Assembly: GCA_035546775.1 (NCBI GenBank)
Contig: DASZWD010000070.1
Location: 1 to 34,584, forward strand
Length of the DNA stretch: 34,584 bases
Origin: Acidimicrobiales bacterium
Lineage (GTDB): Bacteria > Actinomycetota > Acidimicrobiia > Acidimicrobiales > JACCXE01
Reading direction: 5' to 3'
The notes under the pieces are model-generated. The model was given only the letters and a program-made list of their open reading frames with translations. It had not been told where the DNA came from and made no database searches. Position numbers and translations under genes: made by a program. Below, one piece after another: positions 1 to 12,085 of this stretch. Positions within the stretch are counted from its first letter, which is position 1. Every line of letters begins with the position of its first letter.

Positions 1-864
1 GAGCAGGGGCCGCGTACGCGCGCTGAGATCGAGGCGCACGTGCCGGGGTATCCGCCCGATCCCGAATCGGCGCGGCGGCAGTTCGAACGCGACAAGCAGG
101 CGTTGCTGGCCAACGACATCCCGCTGCGCATCGTCGAGCAGGGCGACGAGTGGACCTACGAGGTCCGCGAGTCCGACTACTACCTGCCCGAGCTGAACCT
201 GACGAACGAAGAGCAGCTGGCGCTCGAGCTGGTGCTGTCGGCGGTCAACATCGGCGGGGCACCGGCGCACAACCTGCTGCGCAAGATGGGCGCCGGCGTC
301 GACGGGTCGGTCTCGCCGGTCGGTGTGCTGCCCGACGAGGAACTGCTGCCGGTGCTGTTCGCGGCGCGGCGCGAGCGGGCGCCCGTCACGCTGACCTACA
401 GCGGCCAGCAACGCCAGGTCGATCCGTGGACGGTGTTCTTCACCAACGGGTTCTGGTATCTCGCCGGCTACGACCACCTGCGTGCCGAGCAGCGCACGTT
501 CCGCGTCGACCGCATCGACGACGGCAGCGTGGCGGTGGGCGACAAGGCAGCGTTCGAGGTGCCGGCGTCGTTTCGTGCCGCCACCGTGTTGCCGGCGCCG
601 TGGCAGTTGCCGGGCGACGAGCCGGTCACTGCGGTGGTGCAGCTGTCGGCGTCGATCGCCCGCTACGTCGTGGACTCGATGGGCTCGACCGCCACCGCGT
701 CGGCACCGGCCGAGGACGGCTCGGTGACGATCGAGTTCGAGGTGCGCAACCGCGGCGCGTTCAAGTCGTGGTTGTTCGGCTGGCTCGACGACGCCGAAGT
801 GCTCGGACCCGAGTCGTTGCGCGACGACGTGGTGGCGTGGTTGACGGGGATGGTGTCGGCGTGA
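1..864 (+). CDS. pafB: PafB-like WYL-domain transcriptional regulator (5' end cut off by window)
   Basis: The reading frame is open from base 1, so the true start lies upstream; 287 codons are visible. The first residues include VPGYP followed by RRQFERDK, the conserved link between the N-terminal winged HTH and the WYL part in PafB. The WYL-domain core is visible as FWYLAGYD followed by RTFRVDRI at about residues 151-171. In mycobacteria PafB and PafC form a transcription activator of the LexA-independent DNA-damage response, acting with the housekeeping sigma factor at RecA-NDp promoters; WYL domains are thought to sense nucleic-acid ligands. The stop overlaps the next GTG start by four bases (GTGA), so the two genes are translationally coupled. 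A generic WYL regulator is the alternative, but the tandem pair favours PafBC. Confidence 0.8.
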   Translation, partial: EQGPRTRAEIEAHVPGYPPDPESARRQFERDKQALLANDIPLRIVEQGDEWTYEVRESDYYLPELNLTNEEQLALELVLSAVNIGGAPAHNLLRKMGAGVDGSVSPVGVLPDEELLPVLFAARRERAPVTLTYSGQQRQVDPWTVFFTNGFWYLAGYDHLRAEQRTFRVDRIDDGSVAVGDKAAFEVPASFRAATVLPAPWQLPGDEPVTAVVQLSASIARYVVDSMGSTATASAPAEDGSVTIEFEVRNRGAFKSWLFGWLDDAEVLGPESLRDDVVAWLTGMVSA

Positions 865-1787
865 GTCGCGAGGACGTCGTCAGCCGCCTCGGTCGACTGC
901 TGGCGGTGGTGCCCTGGATCGCGGCGCAGCCCGACGGCGCGTCGGCCGCCAAGATCGCGGCGCAGTTCGGCGTGACCGAGTCCCGCATCGAGAAGGACCT
1001 CCAGTTGATCGTGGAGGTCGAGCCCGTCGCCCAGGCCAACGTGCTGATGTGGGAAGAAGGCGGCCGCTGGTACGTGGACCGCTTCACGAAGTTGTCGCGG
1101 CCGCTGCGCATGACCCAGGCCGACGCGTTCGCCGTGGTCGCCGCCGCGCAGCTGATGTTGCAGGCGCCGGGTGTGGGAACGTCGGGCGCGTTCGCCTCGG
1201 CGATCGGCAAGGTGGCCCGCGCCGTCGGTGGCGACGTCAACGGCCTCGAAGTGCAGCTGCCGCGCCCGCCGGCGCTCGATGTGTTGGCCAAGGCCCTCGA
1301 GGCGCGGCGCTGTGTGCAGATGGAGTACTACTCGGCGGGTCGCGACGAGGTCACGTCGCGGGTGGTCGAGCCGCTGGCGCTGTTCACCGTGGACGGGTGG
1401 TGGCACCTCGTCGGGTGGTGTCACACCGCGCAGGCCGAGCGCGACTTTCGTGTCGACCGCGTGCGCCAGGTCGACGTGCTGGATGACACCTTCGAGTGGC
1501 GACCGCCGACGCTGCGCACCGACGTCGCCTTCGATCCCGACGTTGCGCACGCCACGCCGATCCGTATTGAGGTGCAGCCGGCGCAACGCTGGGCGGTCGA
1601 GCGCTACCCGGTGCGCGACGTCGTCGACAATGCCGACGGAACCACGCAGTTCACCGTCGACGCCGCCGGCGACGCGTGGCTGGAACGACTGCTGCTGCGT
1701 CTCGGCCCGACAGCGAAGGTGATCGAACCGGCGGCATCGGTGGTCGGAAGCGACGTCGCGGCGCGGCTGTTGGCGCTGTACGAGTAG
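861..1787 (+). CDS. pafC: PafC-like WYL-domain transcriptional regulator
   Basis: A 308-aa protein starting at the GTG that overlaps the pafB stop. An N-terminal HTH (LGRLLAVVPWIAAQ through FGVTESRIEKDLQLI, residues 9-53) is followed by SRPLRMT and a WYL core (GWWHLVGW then RDFRVDRV, around residues 177-200). This order and length fit PafC, the partner of PafB. The pair would act as a heterodimeric DNA-damage-responsive activator. The frame is also open far upstream of 861, but that upstream part is only the shadow of pafB. After this gene there is an 84-base gap and then DUF2283; the tatA/tatC genes that often follow pafBC in mycobacteria are not here. Assignment as PafC rather than a generic WYL protein rests mainly on the tandem arrangement. 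Confidence 0.78.
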   Translation: MSREDVVSRLGRLLAVVPWIAAQPDGASAAKIAAQFGVTESRIEKDLQLIVEVEPVAQANVLMWEEGGRWYVDRFTKLSRPLRMTQADAFAVVAAAQLMLQAPGVGTSGAFASAIGKVARAVGGDVNGLEVQLPRPPALDVLAKALEARRCVQMEYYSAGRDEVTSRVVEPLALFTVDGWWHLVGWCHTAQAERDFRVDRVRQVDVLDDTFEWRPPTLRTDVAFDPDVAHATPIRIEVQPAQRWAVERYPVRDVVDNADGTTQFTVDAAGDAWLERLLLRLGPTAKVIEPAASVVGSDVAARLLALYE

Positions 1788-2130: not shown

Positions 2131-2532
2131 TCAGCGTCGCGACCAGCGGTCGAGTATTTCCATCGACACGGCATTCAGGAGCCGCATCGAGCCGGGCGCC
2201 ATCGCATAAATGTCGCGGTCGATGAGGCCTTCGACGTCGTCCTCGTCGAAGTAGGTGATGTGCTTGTACACGTGCACCTCGAGCGCGTCGAGATAGGCAT
2301 CGAAGTCCGCTTCGTCAAGGCCCGTCGTCTGTTCGAGGATCAGCTCGGGTGAGGCGTGCAGCGTGCGCAGGTCGGTTGTCGGCAGATACCCGAAGGGGCG
2401 GTGCAGGTTGCTCGGATCCGCGGGCGCTGCGCGCCACCAGTCCGACGGCGCGATGAAGAGCAGTTCCAACCCGAGGGCTTCGGCGATTTCGGAGAAACGG
2501 TCCTCGACGAGCCGCAGTCGGCGGTGGTTCAT
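2131..2532 (-). CDS. hypothetical protein, coupled to NYN nuclease gene
   Basis: A 133-aa protein; the ATG at 2532 is chosen because it overlaps the stop of the upstream NYN gene by four bases (ATGA). The sequence is acidic and mostly helical, with an early LFIAPSDWWRAAP segment and a C-terminal LEVHVYKHITYFDEDD region. No signal peptide or membrane segment is present. I do not recognise the family. Because it is co-transcribed with a putative NYN ribonuclease from a PafBC-like promoter, it may modulate or accompany that nuclease, possibly as an inhibitor or adaptor; that is inference from position only. Confidence 0.72.
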   Translation of the reverse strand: MNHRRLRLVEDRFSEIAEALGLELLFIAPSDWWRAAPADPSNLHRPFGYLPTTDLRTLHASPELILEQTTGLDEADFDAYLDALEVHVYKHITYFDEDDVEGLIDRDIYAMAPGSMRLLNAVSMEILDRWSRR

Positions 2533-3026
2533 GCGCTGAGCGCGAACGAGTCCGCCCGCTGCCAACCGTCGTCACGCAGGTCAAGGACAGACTGTGGTTC
2601 GGGCAGCGTGAGCACCGTGTCGGCCTGCGCTCGGGAGTAGCGGGAGATCGCCTGCTCGCGGCCCACGAGCGTCGTCTCGACGCCGGCGAGCCGCAGCGAT
2701 GCCAGGAGCCCGGCGAAGATGTGGTCGCCGGAAGCCACGACCACCCGGTCGAACCGCTCGGCGAGCCAGTCGACGCGTTCGTGGAAGATGAGAGCGAGGT
2801 CCGCGCCGTCCTTGCCCCGAGCCACCTTGACCTCCGCTCCGGGGAAGGCGCTCTTGGCGGCGAACGCGAGGCTGCGGTTCACCGCCACGAAGACGAGGTC
2901 GTCGGGGCCGGGAACCACGAGGTCGTGGTACTGCTGGGCGATGAGCTCGACGGCGGCTTCGTCCCATGCCGTGTCGCCGAGCTGATTCTCCAGGTCGATC
3001 AGGTGATAACTGCGTCCGTTGCGCAT
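2529..3026 (-). CDS. NYN/PIN-like domain putative ribonuclease
   Basis: A 165-aa protein. The pattern fits a NYN (PIN-fold) nuclease: YHLIDLENQLG near the start supplies the first acidic residue, GKDGADLAL in the middle a second, and VVVASGDHIF matches the SGDxDF-like motif preceding the final acidic site. NYN domains are metal-dependent RNases acting in RNA processing or in conflict systems. The ATG at 3026 is chosen over an upstream start at 3107 because a promoter (TTGTCACAC-N8-TACAAC) lies six bases before it, implying a leaderless mRNA, and because the domain begins here. It shares a divergent region with the gene at 3100 and overlaps the unknown gene downstream. The RNase role is inferred from motifs. 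Confidence 0.75.
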   Translation of the reverse strand: MRNGRSYHLIDLENQLGDTAWDEAAVELIAQQYHDLVVPGPDDLVFVAVNRSLAFAAKSAFPGAEVKVARGKDGADLALIFHERVDWLAERFDRVVVASGDHIFAGLLASLRLAGVETTLVGREQAISRYSRAQADTVLTLPEPQSVLDLRDDGWQRADSFALSA

Positions 3027-3032
3027 GTTGTC

Positions 3033-3055
3033 GTTGTACCGAGGCGGTGTGACAA
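3033..3055 (-). promoter_or_regulatory. PafBC/RecA-NDp-like promoter of NYN gene
   Basis: On the minus strand TTGTCACAC (3055-3047), eight bases, TACAAC (3038-3033), six bases, then ATG at 3026. The mycobacterial RecA-NDp motif is tTGTCRGTG-N8-TAnnnT; the TTGTCA core, the eight-base gap and TA match, while the last three bases are CAC instead of GTG. Transcription would start at or next to the ATG. Confidence 0.55.
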
Positions 3056-3079
3056 CTACGGAGAAATAGCTGTCACACC
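3046..3079. promoter_or_regulatory. 9-bp inverted repeat in divergent promoter region
   Basis: GGTGTGACA (3046-3054) and TGTCACACC (3071-3079) are perfect inverted arms with 16 bases between them. Each arm is the upstream element of one of the two divergent promoters (NYN gene leftward, gene at 3100 rightward), so one regulator or sigma adaptor could serve both directions. Confidence 0.7.
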
Positions 3080-3092
3080 CTCCGCGGATCAT
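3070..3092 (+). promoter_or_regulatory. PafBC/RecA-NDp-like promoter of gene at 3100
   Basis: CTGTCACAC (3070-3078), eight bases, GATCAT (3087-3092) as a weak -10, seven bases, then ATG at 3100. The CTGTCACA element lies exactly 22 bases before the ATG, as in the promoter at 5441-5463. The -10 is poorer than in the other three copies. Confidence 0.45.
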
Positions 3093-3099
3093 GGGGTGT

Positions 3100-3570
3100 A
3101 TGACCACTCGCCGCCTGACCGTGCCCGAGCTCGCTGCCGACCTGCCGCGCGTCCTCGACTACGCCCGCGTCGACCAGGGCTTCGTGTTCGTGGAGAACGG
3201 GCGCCACTACATCCAGCTGGCGTTTCCTGATGGCTGGGTGCTCGCCGAGGCGGTCGGCAACGCCTACCTCGAAGACCCCTGGACCCTCCAGCAGCATCAG
3301 GAGGTGCTGCTCGACATCCTGGGATGGGCGCGGCCCGGCGCCGCCGATCGTGACGGGCGCCGGCACCGCAACTTCCATCGCGTGTGGCTGGGCGAGACGT
3401 CGAGCGCGGCGATCGCCGAGGACGTCGTGCGCACCTTCACCGCCGTCTACCTCGAGAACGAGGCCGCCGAAGTCGACCTCCGGGTTGTCTCGACGGAGTA
3501 CTCGGGCGGCGGCTTCGGCGACCTGGACGACGATGCTGACGCGCTGCGCGTCGGTCAGCCGTCCGCGTGA
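3100..3570 (+). CDS. YbjN/T3SS-chaperone-like (TY-Chap) domain protein
   Basis: A 156-aa soluble protein. An ATG at 3091 is also in frame, but it overlaps the -10 GATCAT, so the ATG at 3100 (leaderless) is preferred. The core ENGRHYIQL, then WVLAEAVGNAYLED, a helix ending LGW, NFHRVW, and a final helix with FTAVYLEN matches the layout I associate with the actinobacterial TY-Chap group, small proteins with the fold of type III secretion chaperones and YbjN, thought to bind peptides. The gene at 18151 has the same layout. It is followed by two small genes with a three-base gap and an ATGA overlap, forming a short operon. The biochemical role is unknown. Confidence 0.6.
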   Translation: MTTRRLTVPELAADLPRVLDYARVDQGFVFVENGRHYIQLAFPDGWVLAEAVGNAYLEDPWTLQQHQEVLLDILGWARPGAADRDGRRHRNFHRVWLGETSSAAIAEDVVRTFTAVYLENEAAEVDLRVVSTEYSGGGFGDLDDDADALRVGQPSA

Positions 3571-3573
3571 TCG

Positions 3574-3762
3574 GTGTTCGATCTCTTCGTCGGCTGCACG
3601 GCGCTGCTGTCGGGGATCGTGTGTCTCGCCGTCTTGATCGCGCTGATCATCGTCGCGCCGCTCGTGACGGTACCGACCCTGGCGGTGCTGACGGTCGTCG
3701 TCGCCCGCCGCGTGCGGCGAATACGGCACACTGAACGTGCGGTGAAAGGAAGTAGGGAATGA
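3574..3762 (+). CDS. small membrane protein
   Basis: A 62-aa protein from GTG at 3574, three bases after the previous stop. Nearly the whole N-terminal two thirds is hydrophobic (residues 4-51, with Gly and Pro breaks), consistent with two closely spaced transmembrane helices, ending in a basic tail (RRVRRIRHTERAVKGSRE). It resembles no family I can name. Its stop overlaps the ATG of the next gene (ATGA), so it sits in an operon with the TY-Chap-like gene and the 48-aa basic protein. Confidence 0.65.
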   Translation: MFDLFVGCTALLSGIVCLAVLIALIIVAPLVTVPTLAVLTVVVARRVRRIRHTERAVKGSRE

Positions 3763-3905
3763 ATCGCGGTGGGTTCAGCTGGAAGCGGTTTCTGGGCGTC
3801 ACGGCGGCCAAGCGACGCGTGTCACGGGCGACGGGCATCCCGTGGACCAAGTCGGGCCGCGAACGCAAGCTCGGGGCGATGATCTTCAAGTTGTTCAAGC
3901 CGTAG
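3759..3905 (+). CDS. 48-aa basic small protein
   Basis: The ATG at 3759 overlaps the stop of the preceding membrane-protein gene and is preceded by the purine-rich run GGAAGTAGGG. The 48 residues are strongly basic: WKRFLGVTAAKRRVSR, then ATGIPWTKSGRERK and a C-terminal amphipathic tail IFKLFKP. The internal KRRVSRATGIP...SGRERK pattern looks like a conserved small actinobacterial protein rather than random translation, but I do not know its function; nucleic-acid or membrane binding is possible from charge. The stop at 3905 abuts the stop codon of the opposite-strand gene at 3906. Confidence 0.65.
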   Translation: MNRGGFSWKRFLGVTAAKRRVSRATGIPWTKSGRERKLGAMIFKLFKP

Positions 3906-4529
3906 CTACGGCGCGCTGATCTGATCCCGCAGGCTGTTGACCACCGTGGTCGCTTGCAGGGCGGCGTTGAGTTGCTGGGCGTCACAGGTCGGCGGGTTGG
4001 TCGCCGTCCCGGTGCAGGCGGCGAGGGCGGGCGCCACGGCGGCGGCGTGCTGGGCTTCGGCCACGAGTTCCTGATGCTCGGTTTGTAGACCCGCCGGCGG
4101 CGTGATGGCGCTCAGGCGCTGCGCCAGAGCCTGGTAGTCCGCCGGCGTGGCGTTGTCGCTCACGGTGGCGTTGTAGGTCGACTTGAGCTGGGCGCGGTAG
4201 GCGGCGGCGGGTGTCTGTGAGGCGACGGCGTTGCGCGTCGCCGGGGAGTCGTGGCGGCTGACGGCCTGCCCGACGGCGGCCACCAGCACGACGGCCACGC
4301 TCGCCGCGATGCCCACGAGGACGCGGCGGTGCGACGGCCACCGCGACGGCAGCGGCTGCTCGCGATGGACCGACTTGAGTGCCCGGCCGAACTCGCGCAG
4401 CTCGATCAGGCTGTCGGCGCGGGTGGCGTCGAAGCCGAGGACGGAGCAGGACTGGAGAACGTCGTCGACCGAGACGTCGAAGCGGCGCGCGATCTCGTCG
4501 GCTCGTAGGTATTCGGCCCGTATCGTCAC
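3906..4529 (-). CDS. membrane-anchored protein with IF2_N-like cytoplasmic domain
   Basis: A 207-aa protein beginning with GTG, preceded by a GGGGAGG ribosome site. Residues 6-50 (RADEIARRFDVSVDDVLQSC through SLIELREFGRAL) resemble the small IF2_N helical module found at the start of initiation factor 2 and in assorted actinobacterial proteins. A single transmembrane helix follows at residues 70-90. The C-terminal 115 residues are extracytoplasmic, Ala- and Thr-rich and probably helical, with two Cys (ACTGT, TCDAQ) that could form a disulfide. The function is unknown; the topology suggests an anchored protein linking a cytoplasmic interaction module to an exported domain. Confidence 0.65.
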   Translation of the reverse strand: MTIRAEYLRADEIARRFDVSVDDVLQSCSVLGFDATRADSLIELREFGRALKSVHREQPLPSRWPSHRRVLVGIAASVAVVLVAAVGQAVSRHDSPATRNAVASQTPAAAYRAQLKSTYNATVSDNATPADYQALAQRLSAITPPAGLQTEHQELVAEAQHAAAVAPALAACTGTATNPPTCDAQQLNAALQATTVVNSLRDQISAP

Positions 4530-4552
4530 GCCCCACCTCCCCGCTGAAGTTC

Positions 4553-4564
4553 GCTGACGTCAGC
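4553..4564. promoter_or_regulatory. 12-bp palindrome upstream of gene 4529(-)
   Basis: GCTGACGTCAGC is a perfect palindrome in the 59-base gap before the IF2_N-like membrane-protein gene, just upstream of its GGGGAGG ribosome site. It could be an operator; no regulator is assigned. Confidence 0.35.
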
Positions 4565-4588
4565 TAACGCCTTTCATGCGCCGCGTCG

Positions 4589-5374
4589 CTACCCACAAAT
4601 GCGGGTTTCGAGCTCGTCGACGAGGCGTGCGAGTTCGTGGGCGAGGCGGCTGGTCGGCCGGCGCTCGAGGAAGGCGTCGCTCAGTTGGCGGTAGTACCAC
4701 AGCTGCGCGTCGGCGCTGCGGGCGTCGGCATTGAAGCGAGTCCACAACGCGTCGCCCAGCTCGGTGTAGTCGGCGAGGATGGCGCGGGCGTTGTGCACTT
4801 TGTCGGCGTTGGAGACGCGCAAGGCGGCCTCGCTCGTGTGCGGGTCGCGCACGTGGGCGATGTAGCGCTCCTTGCGTTCGCGCCAGGGCGGCTTCGGGAT
4901 CGTGTCGGTGTCGGAACACGCGTCGACGATCGCCGCCACCGAGTCGCCGAACTGTGCGGCAATGGTGTCGAGGTCGGTCTTGCCGTCCTCGACGGCGTCG
5001 TGGAGCAGCGCGGCGATGGCCTCGTCCTCGTCGCCGCCGTCCTCGAGCACCAGCGACGCCACCGCGAACAGGTGCGACACGTAGGGGATGGTGGTGCCCT
5101 TGCGCAGGTGGTCGATGTGGAGCTCGGAGGCCCAGGCGGCGGCTTCGCCGAAACGGTCGGTCAGCCCGGTCTCGCTCACCGCGTCGACGGTATCGCCGAA
5201 GAACGAGTCGCCGCAGGCGAGGCAGCGGTGCGTGCGCGGGCCCGGTTCGCCCTCGACGACCTCGATGGCACAGCCGCCGTACTCGACGTCGCGCCCCATG
5301 ATCGGTTCGGTGACCAGTCCCCACACGATCTCGCGCACGACGGTCGATCCACAGGTGGGACAGGCGATGCTCAT
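4589..5374 (-). CDS. zinc-ribbon + HD-domain phosphohydrolase (MESH1/SpoT-like)
   Basis: A 261-aa protein. Residues 1-58 form a zinc ribbon: CPTCG (C5, C8), C35, and CLACG (C51, C54). Residues 84-205 match the HD hydrolase fold of SpoT and MESH1: H101 in VSHLFAVA, the H125-D126 pair in LLHDAVED (with E129-D130), and a late SNADKVHNAR motif supplying the last Asp. Such domains remove pyrophosphate from (p)ppGpp or act on related nucleotides. No synthetase domain is present. The ATG at 5374 has a -10 TACTAC six bases upstream and CCGTCACAC eight bases before that, a PafBC-like leaderless promoter. The substrate is inferred; the zinc ribbon may confer nucleic-acid or partner binding. Confidence 0.8.
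   Translation of the reverse strand: MSIACPTCGSTVVREIVWGLVTEPIMGRDVEYGGCAIEVVEGEPGPRTHRCLACGDSFFGDTVDAVSETGLTDRFGEAAAWASELHIDHLRKGTTIPYVSHLFAVASLVLEDGGDEDEAIAALLHDAVEDGKTDLDTIAAQFGDSVAAIVDACSDTDTIPKPPWRERKERYIAHVRDPHTSEAALRVSNADKVHNARAILADYTELGDALWTRFNADARSADAQLWYYRQLSDAFLERRPTSRLAHELARLVDELETRICG
4592..4605. promoter_or_regulatory. imperfect fourth copy of the CCCGCA-WW-TGCGGG motif
   Basis: CCCACAAATGCGGG on the plus strand differs by one base from the promoter palindrome at 6435 and 12097. It lies in the last codons of the HD gene, upstream of the minus-strand gene at 4529, but no TACCGT lies 23 bases further on. It may be coincidental coding sequence. Confidence 0.2.
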
Positions 5375-5380
5375 GGGTTA

Positions 5381-5403
5381 GTAGTACGCCGCGGGTGTGA
5401 CGG
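5381..5403 (-). promoter_or_regulatory. PafBC/RecA-NDp-like promoter of HD gene
   Basis: On the minus strand CCGTCACAC (5403-5395), eight bases, TACTAC (5386-5381), six bases, ATG at 5374. The geometry is identical to the promoter of the NYN gene. Confidence 0.5.
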
Positions 5404-5420
5404 TTCGCACGGACAGTTCC

Positions 5421-5463
5421 CCCGCATTTGCGGGAGGTTGCTGTCACATCTGATCCGTACCGT
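5421..5463 (+). promoter_or_regulatory. composite promoter: CCCGCATTTGCGGG palindrome + CTGTCACAT + TACCGT
   Basis: The palindrome CCCGCA-TT-TGCGGG occupies 5421-5434, followed by exactly 23 bases and the -10 TACCGT (5458-5463), then seven bases and ATG 5471. Between them CTGTCACAT (5441-5449) lies eight bases before the -10. This single promoter therefore carries both of the recurrent elements found in the window. Confidence 0.6.
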
Positions 5464-5470
5464 CGTCAGC

Positions 5471-5671
5471 ATGGCTGCCTTCGATTACTTCTTGCTGACG
5501 TGGGAGCCGGTCGAGAGCATCGAGCGGTTCAACCACCGGTTGTCGACACTGGGCGCCGAGGGGTGGGAAGCCGTGAGCATGTCGCCGCGCCGCACCTCGG
5601 TCCCGATGGCCGGCATGGGTGCCGACGCCATCGCCGACATCGCGGTGCTCCTCAAGCGCGCCGTCGAATAA
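5471..5671 (+). CDS. small DUF4177-like protein
   Basis: A 66-aa protein. The ATG at 5471 follows the -10 TACCGT by seven bases, so the mRNA is probably leaderless; the frame is open far upstream but that is not coding. The pattern FDYFLLTWEPV, then a helix ending LSTLGAEGWEAVSM, then AVLLKRAVE resembles DUF4177-type small alpha-beta proteins, in which a GAEGWE(L/A)V motif precedes the last strand. The function is unknown. It is divergent from the HD phosphohydrolase gene, with both palindromic and GTCACA elements between them, and converges on the DUF1524 lipoprotein gene 13 bases away. Confidence 0.7.
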   Translation: MAAFDYFLLTWEPVESIERFNHRLSTLGAEGWEAVSMSPRRTSVPMAGMGADAIADIAVLLKRAVE

Positions 5672-6434: not shown

Positions 6435-6477
6435 CCCGCAAATGCGGGTTGGCCTCGTAACCCACCGTCCGTACCGT
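6435..6477 (+). promoter_or_regulatory. palindrome-TACCGT promoter of DUF2510-Ltp gene
   Basis: CCCGCA-AA-TGCGGG at 6435-6448, 23 bases, TACCGT at 6472-6477. The gene starts 36 bases later at 6514, with GAGAGGTGG as ribosome site, so this transcript has a short leader. The spacing is identical to that at 5421 and 12097. Confidence 0.6.
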
Positions 6478-8557: not shown

Positions 8558-8725
8558 TCAGCGGTCGGGCGGCAGGACGATCGTGTCGTGGTGATGGAAC
8601 ACGCGCGCCTCGACGTACTGGCGCGCCACGGGGACCAACAGCGTGCCGACGACGGCGGCGACGATGATGCGCCGCCACCAGCGGCGAAACGGCCGCAGCG
8701 CGAGGTTGAACAGCACGTACACCAT
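8558..8725 (-). CDS. 55-aa small membrane protein
   Basis: The ATG at 8725 follows TACCGT (plus-strand ACGGTA at 8733-8738) by seven bases, a clear leaderless arrangement. The protein has an amphipathic start, a basic RPFRRWWRR patch, one hydrophobic helix (about residues 20-34), and a soluble tail with HHH. No family is recognised. It is divergent from the SNF2 helicase gene at 8813. Confidence 0.6.
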   Translation of the reverse strand: MVYVLFNLALRPFRRWWRRIIVAAVVGTLLVPVARQYVEARVFHHHDTIVLPPDR

Positions 8726-8812
8726 GGCCGGCACGGTAGAGACACGGTGTGGCGCGTTCGCGGACACCCGGCGCAGCCTGTAACACCCCCTCGGTACGCT
8801 GGCCGGTTCGGG

Positions 8813-12085
<3,273 letters not shown>

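Follow-up and report, generated by a model that had tools for sequence, protein, structure and literature searches.

We find that a group of closely similar promoters in a 34,584-nucleotide (nt) stretch of an Acidimicrobiales genome (GCA_035546775.1, contig DASZWD010000070.1; this whole stretch is called the window) very probably belongs to a DNA-damage regulon of the PafBC type, with a -26 element that reads YGTYACACC instead of tTGTCRGTG and lies eight bases (N8) from a TAnnnT -10 hexamer. Mycobacteria rely on PafBC as their main activator of the DNA-damage response, and to our knowledge its reach outside Actinomycetes has hardly been described. Judged by their sequences, the window promoters are probably akin to the mycobacterial RecA-NDp promoter, as a variant of it and not as literal members of its consensus. 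The draft genome measures 3.75 megabases (Mb), and the window corresponds to its contig C70.

The sequence-only reading had described four such promoters in two divergent regions, and all four are present where it placed them, with a gap of eight bases between element and -10 in each of the four. On the minus strand, the promoter of a gene for an NYN-domain protein (3033..3054) reads TTGTCACAC-CGCCTCGG-TACAAC and is followed after 6 nt by the ATG at 3026; its core element, TGTCACAC (3054-3047), is separated by N8 from the -10 (3038-3033). Gene 3100, on the plus strand, has the same core, TGTCACAC, within CTGTCACAC-CCTCCGCG-GATCAT (3071..3092), 7 nt from its ATG at 3100. The second region pairs a minus-strand promoter before an HD-domain gene (5381..5402; core CGTCACAC, in full CCGTCACAC-CCGCGGCG-TACTAC, 6 nt from the ATG at 5374) with a plus-strand promoter before gene 5471 (5442..5463; core TGTCACAT, in full CTGTCACAT-CTGATCCG-TACCGT, 7 nt from the ATG at 5471). 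Only the 5471 promoter has a strict TAnnnT, and TACAAC, TACTAC and GATCAT are each one position off.

On its own, TGTCACAY is no rarity here, with 4 occurrences in the window against 1.66 expected, a number reached by 8 of 100 shuffles, and thus the case for the window rests on geometry and on the rest of the genome. We trained a weight matrix on 44 sites, all from other contigs, and then applied it to the window. The four promoters ranked 1st (NYN gene, 28.7 bits), 3rd (gene 3100, 19.5 bits), 5th (gene 5471, 17.6 bits) and 6th (HD gene, 15.7 bits), and in all there were six sites of at least 14 bits, against 0.13 expected from Markov-simulated windows. The marginal enrichment of TGTCACAY is what could be said for a chance resemblance among four leaderless promoters, an explanation refuted by this leave-window-out matrix and by the genome and class counts given below, and to which we assign practically no probability.

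Two sites that the sequence-only reading had not listed complete the top six. A promoter at 8779..8800 on the plus strand (TGTAACAC, N8, TACGCT; 27.1 bits) reads TGTAACACC-CCCTCGG-TACGCT and lies 12 nt 5' of the ATG (8813) of an SNF2-type helicase gene. Divergent to it is a candidate at 8733..8754 on the minus strand (CGCCACAC, N8, TACCGT; 18.1 bits), which reads CGCCACACC-GTGTCTC-TACCGT, 7 nt 5' of the ATG of a membrane-like open reading frame of 55 amino acids, and which deviates from the core GT. Since both share the geometry, the window holds three divergent regions and not two; the earlier claim that no other GTCACA is followed by a -10 at such a distance holds to the letter, yet it passed over these two sites.

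We also considered a CRP-like palindrome (TGTGAC...GTCACA between the divergent promoters), and dropped it, because each half-site is a promoter in its own right with a -10 of its own, the distance between the halves varies from region to region, and the sites in the genome mostly occur singly. Direct reading found no LexA box (CGAACN4GTTCG) in the two intergenic regions with the four promoters first described. A weaker match to the matrix, CGTAACCCACCGTCCGTACCGT (6456-6477, plus strand; 10.7 bits), lies upstream of a DUF2510/Ltp lipoprotein gene. Additionally, CCCGCAAATGCGGG / CCCGCATTTGCGGG, an inverted repeat of short length, is found whole or as a half in several intergenic stretches of the window (4597, 5424, 6440), one of them lying between the divergent promoters at 5381-5463.

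Across the genome, with the reversed pattern as control, the strict form GTCACAY-N8-TANNNT occurs 14 times against once for the control, and TGTYACAYC-N7-TANNNY with one mismatch allowed occurs 53 times against 3. The canonical TGTCRGTG-N8-TANNNT has no site in the whole genome. The start-proximal search that had been suggested as a check thus yields about 50 sites against 1-3 in the control, with recA, uvrB, ligA, helicase genes and egtD downstream. A coding-like start codon stands 4-9 nt past the -10 at 28 of the 49 sites examined, compared with 9% of random positions, and because start codons cluster at this distance the transcripts from these promoters are probably mostly leaderless. Setting the TAnnnT hexamer at -12 to -7 puts the element at about -28 to -21, where the PafBC -26 element sits and a -35 box does not.

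The recA promoter reads TTGTTACACC-CCTTCCG-TAGGGT, and the region upstream of recA also bears a LexA box, CGAACAGTTGTTCG. Other genes preceded by the motif are uvrB, ligA, yifB, egtD and those for a UvrD/PcrA-type helicase, a RecB-type nuclease, DnaB, the SNF2 helicase, an HNH protein, three MTES_1575/AbiEi-type proteins and DUF222 and DUF4365 proteins; a UvrD-like protein (L033) that falls beneath the Pfam cut-off is also encoded downstream of a site. Several AbiEi-like/MTES_1575 (DUF559-type nuclease) genes (L042, L052 and L053) each have a GTTACACCCC promoter element. A general housekeeping role for GTYACACC as a promoter element of the class, with no response to damage, would fit with the wide spread of the sites and with the part of the downstream genes that have no known repair role. 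However, there are only about 50 sites in the 3.7 Mb of this genome, their position is about -28 to -21 and not -35, the targets prominently include repair genes, and the motif is near background in two lineages without recognisable PafB (see below); we consider a housekeeping element very improbable.

The motif is widespread in the class Acidimicrobiia. In 296 genomes, GTYACACC-N7-TANNNT occurs 1589 times against 123 for the control (13-fold), and the 231 genomes with a PafB match account for 1506 sites against 102. Two lineages, one lacking any PafB match and the other with none or a very weak one (55 genomes together), hold 40 sites against 20. In one of these lineages three members matched PafB at 1e-11 to 1e-15, so that a divergent PafB is possible, and in the other the genomes are only about 1 Mb; the contrast is therefore supportive but not decisive. 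The recA gene of a genome with no recognisable PafB (G067, locus L260) has a canonical-looking TGTCAGTGGGCACCTCTAGGGT upstream, and a divergent PafB may be encoded in that lineage. Repair genes, encoding SbcD, Lhr, SSB, RecB-type and UvrD-type proteins, again follow the sites in two genomes from other families.

Canonical and new forms are distributed in opposite ways across the phylum. In a phylum sample, families rich in canonical sites (up to 52 per genome) hold 0-3 sites of the new form; the canonical peak of 52 and 49 per genome falls in one large-genome family with 1-2 new-form sites, and the genome studied here has 0 canonical and 28 new-form sites in the same count. Streptomyces- and Mycobacterium-like genomes show the reverse of the Acidimicrobiia pattern. 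Upstream regions of recA, collected by gene and independently of the motif, carry GTCACACC at the same spacing in Aquihabitans and two other metagenome-assembled genome records (L105, L108, L110), and GTCRGTG in Streptomyces, Nocardioides, Rhodococcus and Cellulomonas. Among named organisms, those closest by recA include Aquihabitans sp. G128, a member of Acidimicrobiia, and it is on this ground that the window is assigned to the class.

Two further observations concern promoters in other genomes. In a 2.5-Mb genome (G003), at least 18 of the 20 GTCACACC promoters fetched (L326-L345) precede paralogues of a single family starting MFD..., of which the two tested are DUF222-HNH proteins. The -10 and the ATG are 7 nt apart in each case, and it seems that a nuclease-like family has multiplied here and taken the promoter along with it. 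Separately, the Streptomyces recA promoters (L112, L116, L118, L119, L123, L131 and L138) all read GTCAGTG-N8-TAGCGT at equal distance, which contrasts with a report that the Mycobacterium smegmatis PafBC motif is seemingly not conserved in S. venezuelae (PMC9380542).

The genome encodes two PafBC-like pairs. The sequence-only reading had placed pafBC on the window itself, and a PafBC-like pair is indeed there: a PafB-like protein whose N-terminus is lost at the contig end (1..864, plus strand; WYL and WCX domains, 40% identity to the PafB of contig C4) and a PafC-like protein (861..1787, plus strand; HTH_PafC E=2.7e-14, WYL and WCX, 33% identity to the C4 PafC). Contig C4 carries an orthodox-looking pafB-pafC pair, placed immediately after genes for Ku and a LigD primase-polymerase, and both pairs have WYL and WCX domains, with HTH_PafC in the second gene. 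When about 50 relatives were compared, the C4 pair scored above the window pair against PafB and PafC in most of them. We therefore rejected the window pair as the orthodox regulator, and it is best called a second, diverged PafBC-like pair. Thus, the closeness of the four promoters to it is no evidence for their regulation.

The helix before the invariant FERDK of PafB is altered in the same group in which the motif has changed. It reads AFSRM or SFNRM in PafB proteins of canonical-code genomes, and ESRRAA, ESYRRQ or AFRRT in Acidimicrobiia. Genomes with R or H as the third residue before FERDK hold 540 new-form and 70 canonical sites, whereas those with S, N, D, E or K hold 14 and 244. This altered recognition helix, the tracking of PafB by the motif within the class and the retention of both the place of the PafBC element (-28 to -21) and its N8 gap all argue against another DNA-repair regulator, either a ClgR-like helix-turn-helix (HTH) protein or an unrelated activator, reading the motif with PafBC as a mere passenger. 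An earlier report, cited in PMC5656591, has ClgR recognising the mycobacterial RecA-NDp/P1 promoter and gives that possibility its footing, but we regard it as unlikely.

Given two full PafB/PafC-type pairs in one genome, the C4 and window pairs might divide the sites between them, for example as GTC and GTT, which would be a refinement of the PafBC assignment. T at position 3 is common in the strict sites of this genome, whereas the sites listed for relatives rarely have it and almost always show C. However, an arginine-rich helix is found in both pairs (SRRAA and SARRQ) and genes behind GTC and GTT sites show no visible functional division, and we think such a split rather doubtful. We also offer, as a reading somewhat less likely than not, that PafB and the -26 element have co-evolved into several local Acidimicrobiia codes set by two or three recognition-helix residues, the duplicated pair here reading a broadened set with C or T as third base. 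Candidate local codes are GTCACACC, GTTACACC, GTGACACC and GTCTCACC, in places mixed with GTCRGTG.

Several observations weigh against assigning these promoters to PafBC. Some sites stand before genes with no obvious repair role, including MMPL and ABC transporter genes and a glyoxalase gene. Ten further genomes with no PafB match, several of them incomplete, hold 43 sites against 1, and four genomes with PafB (G015, G043, G060 and G064) have no strict site; several class members of this latter kind carry one-base relatives of the motif at recA (TGTGACACC, TGTCCCACC, TGTCTCACC and TGCAACACC), and sub-dialects such as TGTGACACC and TGTCTCACC partly explain the absence. The association between PafB residue and motif is suggestive only, because phylogeny confounds the tally, which mostly mirrors a single deep split, because its genomes were partly picked by motif counts, and because two class members with a His-Arg-Met helix (G207 and G245) bear both forms. 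Additionally, of 23 HD-gene homologues from other members of the class, none had the motif upstream. At least this target therefore seems to have joined the regulon recently and in this lineage only.

Weighing these points, we retain the proposal of a PafBC-regulon dialect made from the window alone, which is supported by the RecA-NDp spacing, the leaderless geometry, the tracking of PafB by the motif in the class and the replacement of the canonical motif. From sequence comparison we infer that PafBC (the orthodox pair, the second pair or both) binds the motif sites and that the genes behind them respond to DNA damage. In M. smegmatis, the PafB HTH contacts the -26 element and the PafC HTH contacts domain 4 of sigma-A (PMC11804915). 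By analogy, PafB and PafC would form a heterodimer whose WYL domains bind single-stranded DNA derived from damage and which would then join the housekeeping RNA polymerase, with the PafB helix-turn-helix reading the -26 element and PafC holding sigma-A domain 4. A -35 box would be dispensable because of these two contacts.

The genes behind the window promoters encode the NYN-domain protein, a putative RNase (2529..3026, minus strand; Pfam NYN E=8e-7), a TY-Chap3 (YbjN-like) protein (3100..3570, plus strand; PF22552 E=5e-11), an HD_4 protein resembling (p)ppGpp hydrolases whose translation has an N-terminal cysteine-rich stretch (4589..5374, minus strand; HD_4 E=2e-22) and a protein of 66 amino acids with no Pfam match (5471..5671, plus strand). 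The third region adds the SNF2-type helicase (8813..12085, plus strand; SNF2-rel_dom E=2e-62, with Helicase_C) and the translated membrane-like frame (8558..8725, minus strand).

The system shares with mycobacterial RecA-NDp/P1 (tTGTCRgtg-N8-TannnT) its position, N8 spacing and TGTC start, PafB and PafC genes of HTH-WYL-WCX type, a recA that also has a LexA box, and a repair regulon including recA, uvrB and egtD; the mycobacterial regulon comprises some 150 genes, including recA, uvrABC, adnAB, recBCD and egtD (PMC8223512). It differs in having CAC(C) for GTG(G), in allowing T as third base, in the absence of the canonical form from this genome, in the Arg/His of the PafB recognition helix, and in having two PafBC-like pairs, the orthodox one beside ku and ligD. 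SiwR and DriD are likewise HTH-WYL activators tied to genotoxic stress, but they are homodimers with other targets (PMC11804915), whereas here a PafB and PafC pair carries HTH_PafC. M. tuberculosis tolerates TGTCAC-N10-TA-N3-T beside TGTCGG and TGTCAG (PMC8151990), with the same TGTCAC core and total spacing, and the first step of the dialect was therefore already known. What is new, on the evidence of the genomes compared, is that a minor variant there appears here fixed, extended to ACACC and in normal use throughout a class, with no canonical sites in this genome and with accompanying changes in PafB. An open-licence literature search found no paper naming PafBC together with Acidimicrobiia.

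These findings have implications for how DNA-damage responses are recognised in Acidimicrobiia. With an altered code that is nonetheless consistent, damage regulons can be predicted for a large class of mostly uncultured bacteria, whose regulon would be missed by searches that use the mycobacterial consensus only. Additionally, setting PafB residues against motif bases gives a comparative handle on recognition of the -26 element. If our assignment is correct, PafBC from Acidimicrobiia and PafBC from M. smegmatis would each favour its own code, GTCACACC and GTCGGTGG respectively. If several local codes do exist, they would form a natural series for how a sigma-adapting activator picks its promoters.

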